From contig CAJXKD010000001.1 in the NCBI GenBank assembly GCA_913055735.1, positions 62,001-126,000 on the forward strand: DNA of 64,000 bases, in the 5' to 3' direction. Positions 2,702 to 9,842 of this stretch are shown here, one piece after another. This DNA comes from an uncultured Rhodospirillales bacterium. Its GTDB lineage: Bacteria; Pseudomonadota; Alphaproteobacteria; Rhodospirillales; UBA2165. Position numbers and translations under genes: made by a program. Numbering within the stretch: position 1 is the first letter of the stretch; every line of letters begins with the position of its first letter. The notes beneath the pieces were generated by a model. It was not told the DNA's origin. It searched no databases and saw nothing but the letters and a program-made list of their open reading frames with translations.

Positions 2702-4341
2702 GGGGTTCCTCCTACGGTCACCGGTGACGGCGGCGACTTGCCGAGTATCAGATCGGCGGCCTTTTCCGCGATCATCAGCACCGCCGCATGGATGTTGCCG
2801 CTCACCAGGTCCGGCATCACCGAGGCATCAACTACCCGGAGATTATCGATTCCACGGAGCTTGAGCGAGCCGTCAACGACCGCGCCTTCGTCACTTCCCA
2901 TGCGGCAGGTGCCGCACGGATGATGCACGGTCGTACAGGTCTTACGGATGTGGGCGTTGAGCGCATCGTCATCCGCGACCTCCGCCGGAGACAGGCGCGC
3001 CGCGCCGCGATGCCTGTCGAGCACCGATTGCATGAAAATGTCGTTGGTATAGCGGATGCCTTTCCGGAGCTTGGCGAGATCCGCGTCGACGGCAAAGAAA
3101 TTCTGCCGCAGACGCACTCTCTCTTTCGGATCGGGAGAGGCGAGTTCGACCTTGCCGCGGCTTTCGGGGTGCAGCAGCACGGCACGGCACCCGAAGCTGT
3201 CCACCCACGCAGGCTTTATGCCGGGGAACCAGACATGGGCAAAGCGCGGCACGAAGGAATAGAGAAGCTGGATGTCGGGCACCACCTCGGACGGATCCGT
3301 TTTGGCAAAACCATTCAGCCCGCCGGGGAAATCCGTCGCCGGCCCCGTACCGGTCAAATAAGCGCGTGGGATATTCACTGCCACCCGATCGGCCCGTAGC
3401 GTATCGCGGAATAAGCCGGACTGGGTCCGCTCGTAATCGACACCCGACGCGATATGGTCCTGCAAATTCTCGCCGACACCGCTCGCGTCATGGACAACCT
3501 GGATCGAGTGTTCCCGTAGGTGATCGGCAGGGCCTATTCCTGACAACATCAATAGCTGCGGCGAGTTGATGGCGCCGGCACTCAAAATCACTTCGCGCCC
3601 GGCACGGGCTTCAACTTCTTGGCCGTTCGCCTCATAGCGCACCCCGACGGCGCGGCCGTCGCGGATCACGATCCGGGTGACCAGCGCATTCAATTGAAGC
3701 TTCAGGTTCGAACGCGACAAAGCCGGACGCAAGAAGGCATCGGCGGCGCTCCAACGGCGGCCGTCTTTGATTGTCTGCTGAGACTTGCCAACCCCGATAT
3801 TTTGCGCGCCGTTATAATCGGGTGTCGTGGGCAAACCTGCCGCCGCCGATGCGGTTAAGACGGGCTCGAGCAACGGATCGTCGTAGCTGCCGGTACGGAC
3901 ATGCAGCGGACCGCTGCCGCCGCGATAGGCATCTTCTCCGCCCTCCCAGGATTCGCACCGCTTGAAGTACGGCAATATATCGGCGAACGACCAACCGGGA
4001 AGTCCTTTCGACGCCCACCGGTCGTAATCTCCCGGGCTGCCGCGGACATACCCCATGGCATTAACCGATGAGCAGCCCCCGAGGACGCGCGCCCGGACGC
4101 ATTCGATCAAGCGATTATCCGCAAAAGGTTCCGGACCGCTTTTGTATCCCCAGTCGTGAAGGCCCTCATCGACGAACTTGCGCATCCAGACGAGCGGGAT
4201 TTTGATCCATGGGTCGCTGTCACGGCCACCCGCCTCGATCAACAGGACCTGCGCGCCGTCGGCACTGAGCCGATTCGCCAGAACGCACCCGGCCGATCCG
4301 CCGCCAACGATGATAAAGTCTGTCTCTATGACATCTGTCAT
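2698..4341 (-). CDS. GMC-family FAD-dependent oxidoreductase (choline dehydrogenase-like)
   Basis: The protein has 547 residues, usual for glucose-methanol-choline oxidoreductases, which oxidise alcohols at the expense of FAD. The dinucleotide-binding motif VGGGSAGC is at 12-19. GGCSSVNAMGYVRG is GMC signature 1 and GAINSPQLLMLSGIG is signature 2. The C-terminal HHPCGTCRMG and SGNIHAAVLMIAEKA blocks carry the catalytic His; the usual Asn/His partner position reads His here. There is no signal peptide. It is the first gene of a minus-strand run GMC-GST-SGNH. Substrate is unknown; pairing with a LigE-like GST hints at aromatic or ether alcohols (inference). Confidence 0.88.
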   Translation of the reverse strand: MTDVIETDFIIVGGGSAGCVLANRLSADGAQVLLIEAGGRDSDPWIKIPLVWMRKFVDEGLHDWGYKSGPEPFADNRLIECVRARVLGGCSSVNAMGYVRGSPGDYDRWASKGLPGWSFADILPYFKRCESWEGGEDAYRGGSGPLHVRTGSYDDPLLEPVLTASAAAGLPTTPDYNGAQNIGVGKSQQTIKDGRRWSAADAFLRPALSRSNLKLQLNALVTRIVIRDGRAVGVRYEANGQEVEARAGREVILSAGAINSPQLLMLSGIGPADHLREHSIQVVHDASGVGENLQDHIASGVDYERTQSGLFRDTLRADRVAVNIPRAYLTGTGPATDFPGGLNGFAKTDPSEVVPDIQLLYSFVPRFAHVWFPGIKPAWVDSFGCRAVLLHPESRGKVELASPDPKERVRLRQNFFAVDADLAKLRKGIRYTNDIFMQSVLDRHRGAARLSPAEVADDDALNAHIRKTCTTVHHPCGTCRMGSDEGAVVDGSLKLRGIDNLRVVDASVMPDLVSGNIHAAVLMIAEKAADLILGKSPPSPVTVGGTP

Positions 4342-4600: not shown

Positions 4601-4873
4601 ATGACCAGGTTCCTTGTATCCGACACCAACCCCACGGGGTTCAAGCTCGAGGATATCCTCCTCGCGATCCGTAAGGACATCATCCACCGGTGTCAGAAAA
4701 TCGAAGATGACTTGCGCCCCGAAGCGCTCCACGTCATGGACAACAACATGCGAATCCTGGCGTTGCTGAGCGAGGCGATCAATCTGTCCATGGAGTCGAG
4801 CAAAACGCTCGACCGTGCTTTCGGCCCCAGCCAAGCGGCCGGGGGCGGCGAACCTCGTATCGGCGAGCCCTAA
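4601..4873 (+). CDS. Small hypothetical protein
   Basis: The protein has 90 residues, is predicted soluble and largely helical, and has a Gly/Ala-rich tail after about residue 75. I do not recognise a named family. The charged, amphipathic body (KLEDILLAIRKDIIHRCQKIEDDLRPEA) looks like a real protein and not a shadow, and the frame has the GC-rich third positions of the neighbours. It stands alone between the GMC gene and the bufferin operon. Confidence 0.6.
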   Translation: MTRFLVSDTNPTGFKLEDILLAIRKDIIHRCQKIEDDLRPEALHVMDNNMRILALLSEAINLSMESSKTLDRAFGPSQAAGGGEPRIGEP

Positions 4874-4933: not shown

Positions 4934-4950
4934 ACGGTTCTTTGAACCGT
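4934..4950. promoter_or_regulatory. Inverted repeat upstream of the bufferin operon
   Basis: ACGGTTC-TTT-GAACCGT is a perfect 7-base-arm repeat about 135 bases before the precursor start. No T-run follows, which argues against a terminator for the upstream small gene. It could be an operator or leader hairpin. I could not place a convincing ECF-sigma -35/-10 pair around it, although related operons in Caulobacter are known to be ECF-controlled. Confidence 0.35.
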
Positions 4951-5084
4951 CGTGATCGTTCCTCACCTCCTTTTGAGTTCTCGTTGAACGGGTGCCCCCC
5001 TTAGCCTCGCAATTGCATCGGCGGGGCAGTTCATGCTTTGCCCGATCATATGAAAACACCAGAACTCAGAGAGAGGTTAAGTCC

Positions 5085-5387
5085 ATGTCCAAGTTGAATA
5101 AGGCCGTCACGTCCGCCGCGCTTGCCGGTGCCTTCGCTGCCGGTCTGGCCATTGCCGCGGCCCCTGCCGCACAGGCACAGGAAAAAGAAAAGTGCTTCGG
5201 CATTTCCCTGGCGGGCAAGAACGATTGCGCCGCCGGTCCGGGTACGACCTGCGCCGGTACCTCCAAGGTCGATTACCAAGCCAACGCTTGGAAGTATGTT
5301 GCCAAAGGCACCTGCACGACTATGGAGTCCAAAACGTCGCCGACCGGCCATGGCCAGCTCGCGGCCTATACGCCGAAGTCCCGCTAG
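5085..5387 (+). CDS. bufA: Bufferin-type RiPP precursor (DUF2282 family)
   Basis: The precursor has 100 residues. The N-terminus (basic start, hydrophobic 8-30, cleavage after AQA at about 31) is a Sec signal peptide, which is the unusual leader of this RiPP class. The mature part has four cysteines: 37, 48, 56 and 77. In characterised bufferins, DUF692 enzymes convert core cysteines to thiooxazole-type groups and the exported peptide sequesters copper (established for the family; not shown here). The start is the ATG at 5085, preceded by GAGAGG; longer readings from 4992 lack a signal peptide at the N-terminus. It is first in a four-gene operon with the DUF692, DUF2063 and DoxX genes. Confidence 0.9.
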
Positions 5388-5414
5388 CCTTTAGCGCGAC
5401 AACACCTAACGCCA

Positions 5415-5483
5415 TCGGGGACCCCATGAACAGGAACGTTGCACCTGGCCATCGTGCCGAGCGCCGCTCTCCGGGGTCCCCGA
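5415..5483 (+). promoter_or_regulatory. Possible stem enclosing the bufB start region
   Basis: TCGGGGACCCC (5415-5425) is the exact reverse complement of GGGGTCCCCGA (5473-5483). Pairing would form an 11-base, GC-rich stem with a 47-base loop that starts at the ATG of bufB (5426). The only Shine-Dalgarno-like purines (CGGGGA) are inside the 5' arm. Such a stem would reduce MNIO translation relative to the precursor. This is read from sequence complementarity only. Confidence 0.4.
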
Positions 5484-6367
5484 GTGGCTTCGTCTTGACG
5501 GATCTGCCGGCACAGGCCGGCGTCAGTCTCAAACCGGTTCATTATGACGCGATCCTGAACGAATACGACGAGGCGCCGGACAGAATCGGTTTCTTCGAAA
5601 TCCACGCCGAGAATTACATGGGTGCGGGCGGCCCGCCCCATCATTACCTGTCGCGTATCCGCCGCGATTGGGCGCTTTCCGTTCACGGTGTCGGGCTGTC
5701 CATCGGTGGCGAGGCGTCACTCGATACCGAACACCTCGACCGGCTGAAGGTCCTATGTGACCGCTACGAGCCCCACTCATTCTCGGAACATCTCGCCTGG
5801 TCGAGCCATGGTGGCCGTTTCCTCAACGATTTATTGCCCGTCCCCTACAATCACGCGACGCTTACGCGGATCGTCGAGCATATCGACGAGCTTCAGACCC
5901 ATCTCGGACGCCGCATGTTATTGGAGAACCCGTCGACGTATCTTGCATTCGACAATTCCGCTATCGAAGAGGTCGACTTCCTGAGCGAGATAGCCGCGCG
6001 TTCGGGGTGCGGTCTTTTGCTGGATGTCAACAACGTGTTCGTTTCCGCCGCCAACCACGGCTTCGACCCGGCGGCCTATATCGATGCCTTCCCCATTCAG
6101 CATGTCGGCGAAATCCACCTTGCCGGTTTTTCGGTGGACAGCAGTATGGGGCCGACACTGCTCATCGATTCCCATGGTGCGCCGGTGGACGACCGTGTCT
6201 GGCGGCTGTTCGAACGCACGCTCGCCCGGACCGGCCCCGTCCCCGTGTTGATCGAATGGGACAACGACGTTCCTACATTTACGACCCTACTCGACGAAGC
6301 CGAAAAAGCCGGTGCTTGCTTGTCGGACGTGGACGCCGAAGCCGATTGGAGGGCGTGCGTCGCATGA
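5426..6367 (+). CDS. bufB: MNIO (DUF692) oxidase, bufferin-maturing enzyme
   Basis: The protein has 313 residues, typical for DUF692 multinuclear non-haem iron oxidases, which modify cysteines in RiPP precursors. The expected metal-ligand pattern is intact: His87 (SVHGVG), His122 (SEHLAW), Glu167 (LLENPS), Asp200 and His211 (LLDVNN...ANH), His231 (EIHLAG), His250 (DSHGAP) and Glu277 (LIEWD). The start is the ATG at 5426; the open frame extends upstream through the precursor gene, but that part is a shadow. The stop overlaps the next start by four bases (ATGA), so it is coupled to the DUF2063 partner. Confidence 0.92.
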
Positions 6368-7131
6368 CCGGCTATCAGAGCGCCTTCGCGGCCGCACTTC
6401 TCGATCCCGAGGCTTCCCCGCCGCTGAGCCTTCGCGTCCGCGACGGCGATTCGATGGAACGCTGCTTCGCGGTCTACCGGAACAATGTAGCGGTATCTCT
6501 GGTCGACGCGTTGGCCGAACGTTTCCCGGTGTGCCAGCGGCTCGTTGGAGAAGAATTCTTTCGCGCCATGGCGCGTCTCTATGTTGCCCAATCGCCGCCG
6601 TCCTCACCGCTCCTCATGACCTACGGTGACGGGCTGGCCGAATTCATCGCCGCGTTCCCTCCCGCGCAGTCGGTTCCCTATCTTGCAGATGTCGCTTACC
6701 TCGAAGCGGCTCTAACCCGCGCATACAACGCACCCGACGCCGAACCGCTCGATGCCGCCGCGTTCACCGCCATCGATCCCGAAACACTCCCCGACTGCCG
6801 GATCGGCTTGCATCCGTCTATCGAAATTATCCGCTCGCCCTGGGCAATCGGCACCATTTGGTCAGCCAACAAAGATGAACACGAGCCGGCCGCCCTTGAT
6901 CCGTCACAAGCGGAAGATCTCGTCGTCGTACGGCCCAGCCTGGATGTCGAATTGCACCGGCTGTCCGCCGACGGACACGCCGAGTTCCTCATCGCGCTCG
7001 CGCAAGGGGAAACATTGAGCGTCGCCGCCTCGGCAGCAAGTGCGGCCTGCGCGGACTTCGATCCGGCAGACGCTTTTGCTATGCTGGTCAGCCTCAAGCT
7101 GACTTGTGATATCCGTCTTCCATCGTCTTGA
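6364..7131 (+). CDS. bufC: DUF2063 partner protein of the MNIO oxidase
   Basis: The protein has 255 residues and begins at the ATG overlapping the bufB stop. The N-terminal part (about 5-95) has the DUF2063 pattern: QSAFAAALL, then [37 protein letters not shown]2063 proteins are needed together with DUF692 enzymes to bind and present the precursor peptide (family knowledge). The C-terminal half is a less conserved mixed domain. There is no signal peptide, in keeping with modification in the cytoplasm before Sec export. Confidence 0.88.
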
Positions 7132-7143
7132 AAGGATTAGAGT

Positions 7144-7650
7144 GTGAGTGTAGCCAGAGCCGGTTTGACCGGGCTGATCCGTCGCGTCACCGATTTGATG
7201 GAGCTCATCCCCTATTGGGTCGTTGCCTTCCTGGGACGTTTTTCCATTGCCGCCGTGTTTTGGAAATCCGGTCAAACAAAGGTCGAGGGATTCGCGATCG
7301 ATATCTTTTCGGGCACCTTTAATCTCGGTATCCCGCGCCTGTCCGACACCGCCGTGTTCCTGTTCAAGGAAGAGTACAAGCTGCCACTGCTCCCGCCCGA
7401 AGTCGCCGCGCCGCTGGCGGCATTGGCCGAGCATGTCCTGCCTGTGTTGTTGTTGGTGGGACTTGCCTCGCGGTTTTCCGCGCTCGGCCTGCTGATCATG
7501 ACGGCGGTCATCCAGATATTCGTCTATCCCTCCGCCTATCCGACACATGGCACGTGGGCGGCCATCCTGTTGATGATCATGGTCTATGGGCCCGGCAAGC
7601 TTTCGGTCGACCAATTCCTCGCGAGTAAGGAAAAAGCACCGAAAACCTGA
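7144..7650 (+). CDS. DoxX-family membrane protein of the bufferin operon
   Basis: The protein has 168 residues, with a GTG start 12 bases after the bufC stop and an upstream AAAGGA ribosome site. It has about four hydrophobic segments, with WKSGQTK and the GLASRFSALGLLIMTAVIQIF stretch typical of DoxX. DoxX proteins are regular last genes of bufferin-type operons; their role is unclear and may concern redox handling in the membrane. Position and orientation support co-transcription with the three preceding genes. Confidence 0.85.
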   Translation: MSVARAGLTGLIRRVTDLMELIPYWVVAFLGRFSIAAVFWKSGQTKVEGFAIDIFSGTFNLGIPRLSDTAVFLFKEEYKLPLLPPEVAAPLAALAEHVLPVLLLVGLASRFSALGLLIMTAVIQIFVYPSAYPTHGTWAAILLMIMVYGPGKLSVDQFLASKEKAPKT

Positions 7651-7709: not shown

Positions 7710-9842
7710 ATGACCGCAAGTCCGCCCCGGGCGGCAACGCCGCTGGCCGCATTGCCGGTGGCAGTCCTCGATACGGAAACGACGGGCCTCGATCCGGAAC
7801 GGGATCGTATTGTCGCGCTGGCGGCGCGCCGGTTGACCGGCGCGACGTTCGCCGAAACACCGCCTTTGGATTTGCGGATCAATCCGCAAGTGCCGATCCC
7901 GGCGGCATCCACCGCCATTCACGGACTGGGCGATGCCGACGTAGCGGACCAACCCGATTTCGCCGCTATCGCCCCCGAGATTGCGACCTTTGTCTCTGGC
8001 CAAGTGGTGGTCGGCCATCACATCGGCTTCGACCTCACCATGCTCGCCAAGGAAAGCGAACGGGTAAACTGGCCGTGGCAACGCCCGCCGTCTCTCGATA
8101 CCGGTTTGCTCGCCACCGCCCTCAACCCAGATCTGCCCGATAACTCACTCGAAACCATCGCCACTTGGCTCGGGGTCGACCTCGGCCCCCGCCATACGGC
8201 ACTCGGGGACGTCGACACGACCGCCGCCATTTATGCCGCGTTGGTCCCCCTATTGTCCGAAAACGGCGTGCGCACCCTTGCCGAGGCGCAGCGTTTCGTT
8301 CAGCGCCGCGCCAGCCAACTGCGCGGCCAGGAACTCGCCGGCTGGCATGACGATAGCGATGGTGCCGGCGATCTCGCCGGTTCGTCCCTGCCCCGGATCG
8401 ATAGCTATCCGTACCGGCACAGCCTCGCCGACGTCATGTCGTCGCCGCCTGTTTTCACGGAGGCGGCCAATCGGATCAGTACCACCGCCGCCCTGATGCG
8501 CGCCAAGGGGATCAGCGCCGTTCTGGTGAACGACAGCAGCAACCACAACATCACAGGCATCATCACCGAGCGGGACCTCGTTTCCGCGCTGGCCGAACAC
8601 GGCGCGGCGGCCGCCGACATGCCGATTTCCAAGTTCATGGCGGCACCAGTCGAATCCCTGCCGGAAACCGCGCCGGTCTATCGCGCGCTCGGCCGGTTGC
8701 AACGTCTGGGCATCCGGCATCTTGCGGTTACCGGCGACCGGGACGGTACCGTCGGGCAAATTGTCGGCATCGTGTCGGCCCGTGACCTGTTGCGTCAGCG
8801 GGCAACGGACGCTCTTGCTCTAGGCGACGAGATCGCCAGTGCAACCTCCGAAACGCTCGGCCATGTCATGGCCCAGTTACCGGATGTCGCGCGCGGCCTG
8901 TCGGCCGAAGGCGTGTCGGCGCGCCAAATCGCCTCGGTCATCAGTTCGGAAATCCGCGCGCTGACACGGCGCGCCGCCAGCCTCGCCATTGCCGAGATGG
9001 CCGAGGCCGGAAAGGGCCCGCCGCCGGCGCGCTGGTGTCTGCTGGTTCTTGGATCGGGCGGCCGGGGCGAAAGCCTTCTGGCGCTCGATCAGGACAACGC
9101 CCTAATTCACGAAGGAACCGACGAAACTGCCGAGACATGGTTCGCCGAATTCGGCGCGCGCATCGCGGACATGCTCGATGCCGCCGGGGTTCCCTATTGC
9201 AAGGGCGGCGTGATGGCCAAGAACGCGGAATGGCGGCGAACGCCGCAAGGCTGGCGCGATGCCGTCGGCCATTGGCTGTCACGCGCCAAACCCGACGACA
9301 TCCTCAACACCGATATTTTTTTCGACTACAAACCGGTCGCCGGCACACGTGAATTGGCCGACAGTCTCTACGCGACGGCTTTGCGCGCCGCCGGCGGGTC
9401 ACCGCCTTTCCTCAACTTGCTGACGGCCATGGTTTCGGGGATGCAGGCGCCCATCGGTTTCCTCGGCGGCATCCGAACGGACGGCGGTCGGGTCGATCTC
9501 AAGGCAGGGGGTCTTTTACCCCTGGTTTCCATCGCCCGTGTAGCGGCCCTGCGTTTCGGAATCGAGGCCCGTTCCACCCCTGACCGACTGGCGACGGCGG
9601 CCGAGCTCGGCGCTTTGCCCACAGGGGACACGGCGTTGCTGATCGAATTGCATGAGTTCATCTTGCGGCTGGTCCTCGACCAACAGATTGCCGACATCGG
9701 CGCCGGCATCCCACCTTCCACCAAGGTCGATCCGTCGCGTCTGTCACGGACCGAACGCAAAAGATTACGCGACTCGTTGAAGCAGCTCGACACCATCCTC
9801 GCCATGGCCAAATCGACGCTTTCACAGGGCAAAATGAAATAA
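7710..9842 (+). CDS. DEDDh exonuclease-CBS pair-DUF294 nucleotidyltransferase fusion
   Basis: The protein has 710 residues and three parts. Residues 17-180 are a DnaQ-like 3'-5' exonuclease with a complete DEDDh set: Asp21, Glu23, Asp108, His162 and Asp167. Residues of about 240-375 are two CBS motifs (PVFTEAANRIS..., ...KFMAAPVESLPETAPVYRALG), which usually sense adenine nucleotides. From about 440 there is a GlnD-like DUF294 nucleotidyltransferase with GSGGRGE followed by DQD, then the DUF294 C-terminal helical domain. A TTG at 7698 is possible, but the ATG at 7710 has a well-placed GGGAG. It may be regulatory RNA or protein nucleotidylation linked to exonuclease activity; substrate unknown. 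Confidence 0.82.
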   Translation: MTASPPRAATPLAALPVAVLDTETTGLDPERDRIVALAARRLTGATFAETPPLDLRINPQVPIPAASTAIHGLGDADVADQPDFAAIAPEIATFVSGQVVVGHHIGFDLTMLAKESERVNWPWQRPPSLDTGLLATALNPDLPDNSLETIATWLGVDLGPRHTALGDVDTTAAIYAALVPLLSENGVRTLAEAQRFVQRRASQLRGQELAGWHDDSDGAGDLAGSSLPRIDSYPYRHSLADVMSSPPVFTEAANRISTTAALMRAKGISAVLVNDSSNHNITGIITERDLVSALAEHGAAAADMPISKFMAAPVESLPETAPVYRALGRLQRLGIRHLAVTGDRDGTVGQIVGIVSARDLLRQRATDALALGDEIASATSETLGHVMAQLPDVARGLSAEGVSARQIASVISSEIRALTRRAASLAIAEMAEAGKGPPPARWCLLVLGSGGRGESLLALDQDNALIHEGTDETAETWFAEFGARIADMLDAAGVPYCKGGVMAKNAEWRRTPQGWRDAVGHWLSRAKPDDILNTDIFFDYKPVAGTRELADSLYATALRAAGGSPPFLNLLTAMVSGMQAPIGFLGGIRTDGGRVDLKAGGLLPLVSIARVAALRFGIEARSTPDRLATAAELGALPTGDTALLIELHEFILRLVLDQQIADIGAGIPPSTKVDPSRLSRTERKRLRDSLKQLDTILAMAKSTLSQGKMK

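Follow-up and report, generated by a model that had tools for sequence, protein, structure and literature searches.

A predicted Buf1 bufferin operon of ordinary composition in an uncultured Rhodospirillales bacterium

Four adjacent genes of an uncultured Rhodospirillales bacterium raise the question of whether they form a bufferin operon and, if so, whether the cysteine spacing of the encoded precursor sets it apart from the rest of the family. We analyzed these genes within a window of 64,000 nucleotides, whose numbering is used throughout. As judged from sequence, the Buf1 bufferin operon at positions 5085–7650 is genuine and complete, and it is an ordinary copy of a known gene set.

The four genes all lie on the plus strand, and their reading frames are open. 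The precursor gene bufA1 (5085–5387, ATG to TAG, 100 aa) is preceded by an RBS-like AGAGAGG at 5070–5076 on the same strand, read from the sequence 8 nt ahead of the ATG. It is followed by bufB (5426–6367, ATG to TGA), encoding a multinuclear iron oxidase (MNIO, DUF692) bufferin maturase of 313 aa, by bufC (6364–7131, ATG start), encoding a DUF2063 partner (PME-type 1) of 255 aa, and by a gene for a DoxX-family membrane protein of 168 aa (7144–7650, GTG start). The gaps between them are, in order, 38, −4, and 12 nt. The original prediction of four same-strand genes in the order precursor, DUF692, DUF2063, and DoxX is correct to the base, and the ATGA by which the two enzyme genes were said to overlap is present at 6364–6367, where the start of bufC overlaps the stop of bufB.

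The precursor belongs to the DUF2282 family (PF10048, 86.9 bits against a cut-off of 22.4; E = 8.6e-25 over residues 34–82) and is encoded by the sole DUF2282 gene detected in the genome. Residues 1–31 resemble a Sec signal by eye, with MSKLNK, a hydrophobic stretch, and AQA|Q, and a predicted cut behind residue 31 would leave a mature peptide of about 69 residues. The normal signal peptide that had been proposed in place of a leader is in agreement with this, and in the published description of bufferins such a replacement is a general trait (PMC12452194). Cysteines are found at positions 37, 48, 56, and 77, as had been read earlier, giving a spacing of 11-8-21. In the alignment to the family, which had been suggested as a check together with the profile searches, all four match columns that are 99–100% conserved in 130 sequences. 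The precursor carries the family residue at all 10 columns conserved at ≥95% among its relatives, the four cysteines included.

The enzyme BufB matches the Pfam family MbnB_TglH_ChrH (PF05114) with an E-value of 2.8e-102. It scores 377.2 bits against the NCBIfam model NF050167 (MNIO_BufB), above the cut-off of 310, and 225 bits against the model of the oxazolin enzyme HvfB, below the cut-off of 360. It aligns to solved DUF692 structures, best to 3bww (4e-42) and next to TglH-type and MbnB chains, and shares acidic, His, and Asn motifs with them; for the precursor and for BufC, no solved structures were found. All 51 columns conserved at ≥95% have the family residue in BufB, as do 5 of 5 in BufC and 7 of 7 in DoxX. 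Pfam places BufC in PF09836 (7e-28 over residues 4–95) and the membrane protein in PF07681 (1.4e-15), and both score under the cut-offs of the Hvf models. The Pfam matches of all four proteins greatly exceed what chance would give. A C-terminal RRE domain was not detected in BufC with the profiles used. No other MNIO gene than bufB was detected in the genome. The DUF2282 match, the passing of the BufB cut-off, and the gene order together support the bufferin-type identity originally proposed; family, gene order, and conserved residues are observed directly at this locus.

For comparison, we assembled 80 loci from named genomes by protein search and about 50 loci from the same order with a DUF2282 profile, deliberately taking the weakest-scoring DUF2282 members into the latter sample. 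The order bufA–MNIO–DUF2063–DoxX is the commonest arrangement, found exactly in 71 of the 130 loci, a lower bound because of contig ends and a DoxX profile built on a single query. The first three genes occur in a further 35 loci in which DoxX was not detected.

The original prediction held that the 11-8-21 spacing and the short Gly-rich middle could define a distinct subtype. It was made without a comparison set, and the loop between the second and third cysteines (C2–C3) does vary in the family, with a length of 7, 8, or 9. The spacing 11-8-21 is nevertheless the majority pattern. Of the 86 precursors from named genomes, 83 have it; this set is biased towards the query, from which the search seeds were taken. 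Of the 50 precursors from the same order, a set free of such bias, 27 have it, and it is still the commonest form there despite the deliberate choice of divergent members. The spacing 11-7-21 accounts for 3 and 16 precursors in these two sets, and 11-9-21 for none and 6, respectively. In addition, the segment in the middle, [18 protein letters not shown], is almost identical across alpha-, beta-, and gammaproteobacteria, and a near-identical motif is present in a Phenylobacterium (Caulobacteraceae, L110). The motif [22 protein letters not shown] and the 11-8-21 spacing are the commonest form of the family. We therefore rejected the subtype, which is almost certainly not real; the proposed marker is the family default. 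A useful lead is the length of the C2–C3 loop, which takes all three values within the order; another is the apparent exchange of these operons between lineages.

Loci with 11-7-21 spacing (L004, L007, L024, L025, L027–L031, L125, L126, L128–L130) represent part of the order, and their C2–C3 loop is one residue shorter, reading SSCAG or GSCAG where others have GPGTTCAG. A single tree group of 21 rows holds most of the MNIO enzymes of these loci, and loop length and MNIO clade may have changed together. Other precursor arrangements were also seen. At one locus of the same order (L120, 2818–3207), the precursor is devoid of the third cysteine (spacing 11-26) with an MNIO gene in the same locus, and the genome (G152) has a second precursor elsewhere. 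In an uncultured Vibrio (L045, 3995–5491), four tandem DUF2282 precursors precede one MNIO–DUF2063–DoxX set. Three Rhizobium loci (L066, L106, and L109, at about 3560–4260) have two different tandem precursors upstream of one MNIO gene, one of the two being 11-7-21 with CAGKS instead of CAGTS.

By analogy with characterized relatives, from which the chemistry, the reacting cysteines, the disulfide, the export, and the copper binding are all drawn, the operon very probably makes an exported, thiooxazole-bearing, periplasmic copper-chelating peptide that lowers copper stress. In the Buf1 bufferins described in PMC12452194, modification falls on the two central cysteines, and the first and last are disulfide-linked. 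The modified groups are thiooxazoles with a copper-chelating role in the periplasm. Ring installation by related MNIO–partner pairs lowers the mass by 4 Da per cysteine (PMC12668002). Here, BufB and BufC would act on the cytoplasmic precursor and convert the central Cys48 and Cys56 into thiooxazole-type heterocycles. The peptide would then be exported by Sec, with cleavage of the signal after residue 31, and Cys37 and Cys77 would pair as a disulfide. The mature peptide would chelate copper in the periplasm and so reduce copper stress, with DoxX as a putative membrane accessory protein.

A search for the Caulobacter-type sigma-F promoter GTAACC-N16-CGAA gave 69 matches across the window, none of them upstream of the operon, and none between 2710 and 6673 with up to two mismatches. 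The anti-sigma factor NrsF was not found in the genome. As neither element was recognized and the flanking genes scanned include no copper-related one (see below), copper induction is not readable from the sequence. The regulation probably differs from the Caulobacter type, given these two results. A sigma-70 promoter scan found no site upstream of the operon, and an Rfam search returned no matches. A perfect 7-bp dyad, ACGGTTC-TTT-GAACCGT, lies 135 bp upstream of bufA1 (4934–4950, no strand assigned), and the genome has no second perfect copy. It is absent from all 129 other loci, and approximate copies of the pattern number 11 in the genome, against 22 for a reversed control, so that the pattern is not enriched. 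For these reasons we rejected it as a conserved operator and retain it only as a candidate operator, one not supported beyond chance.

No copper-related gene is present among the four flanking genes scanned. Those that match Pfam families encode a GST, a GMC oxidoreductase, a DUF294/CBS/exonuclease protein, and an octopine-dehydrogenase-type protein, none with an obvious role in metal handling. The third of these, at 7710–9842, is a 710-aa protein in which an exonuclease domain is fused to CBS and DUF294 domains; its halves are neighbouring separate genes in several genomes of the same family. Upstream, 4601–4873 encodes a protein of 90 aa that matches no Pfam family and is 63–67% identical to proteins in four other genomes of the family. 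In the genomes that have this protein together with DUF2282 (G019 and G092), the two are on different contigs.

DUF2282 is present in 6 of 24 genomes of the same bacterial family, and in 6 of 10 among the most complete. The MNIO genes of this family sit in separate parts of the tree, and their monophyly was rejected with p-AU values of 1.2e-7 for all six and 2e-4 for four, the latter somewhat flattering because the four-row group was picked after the tree had been seen. The MNIO of the window falls within a starred set of 22 in which beta- and gammaproteobacterial rows predominate. This failure to group suggests horizontal exchange of bufferin operons between lineages as the simplest reading, although paralogy with loss could also account for the pattern. 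We considered a further step, in which a standard bufferin operon moved here horizontally and was rewired to a metal-responsive regulator outside sigma-F/NrsF, whose site of action might be the dyad at 4934–4950; this is a tentative idea and on the whole unlikely.

Two other readings of the operon bear on its role. It may have decayed into an inactive copy, as the patchy distribution in the family might suggest; the four open frames, the retention of every strongly conserved residue, and a GC3 of 0.68–0.73 in the operon genes, resembling the 0.75 of the neighbouring gene, make this very improbable. Alternatively, the same operon could serve mainly against another soft metal (gold, silver, chromate, or cadmium) or general redox or sulfur stress. 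The homologous GIG operons of Legionella pneumophila and Cupriavidus metallidurans respond to gold besides copper (PMC5413113), DoxX has been tied to oxidative or sulfur stress, and Caulobacter-type regulation was not found here. Chromate and cadmium induce the Caulobacter operon (PMC3511200). Copper does so too, but loss of sigF renders the cells copper-sensitive and leaves their sensitivity to chromate and cadmium unchanged (PMC8224329). We consider a main role outside copper rather unlikely, and favor the periplasmic copper-chelating peptide described above, a reading that the copper induction and the copper-sensitive sigF mutant of Caulobacter also support.

The locus is one more well-formed example in a bufferin family of thousands, and its closest counterparts are known. 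The same four-gene operon was described in Caulobacter vibrioides (CC3254–CC3257, PMC3511200; CCNA_03363–03366), with DUF2282, DUF692, DUF2063, and DoxX in the same order and similar protein lengths. That operon adjoins sigF/NrsF and is controlled by it from a GTAACC-N16-CGAA promoter, whereas neither this promoter upstream nor NrsF was found here. The GIG operon, studied for its gold response, has the same four gene families. The oxazolin/Hvf and fontiphorin (captophorin) clusters likewise combine an MNIO, a DUF2063 partner, and DoxX/HvfX with Sec-type precursors and thiooxazole chemistry. Their precursors, however, carry EGKCG repeats, while the one described here has the four-cysteine DUF2282 domain, and the MNIO of this operon lies above the BufB cut-off and below that of HvfB (225 versus 360).
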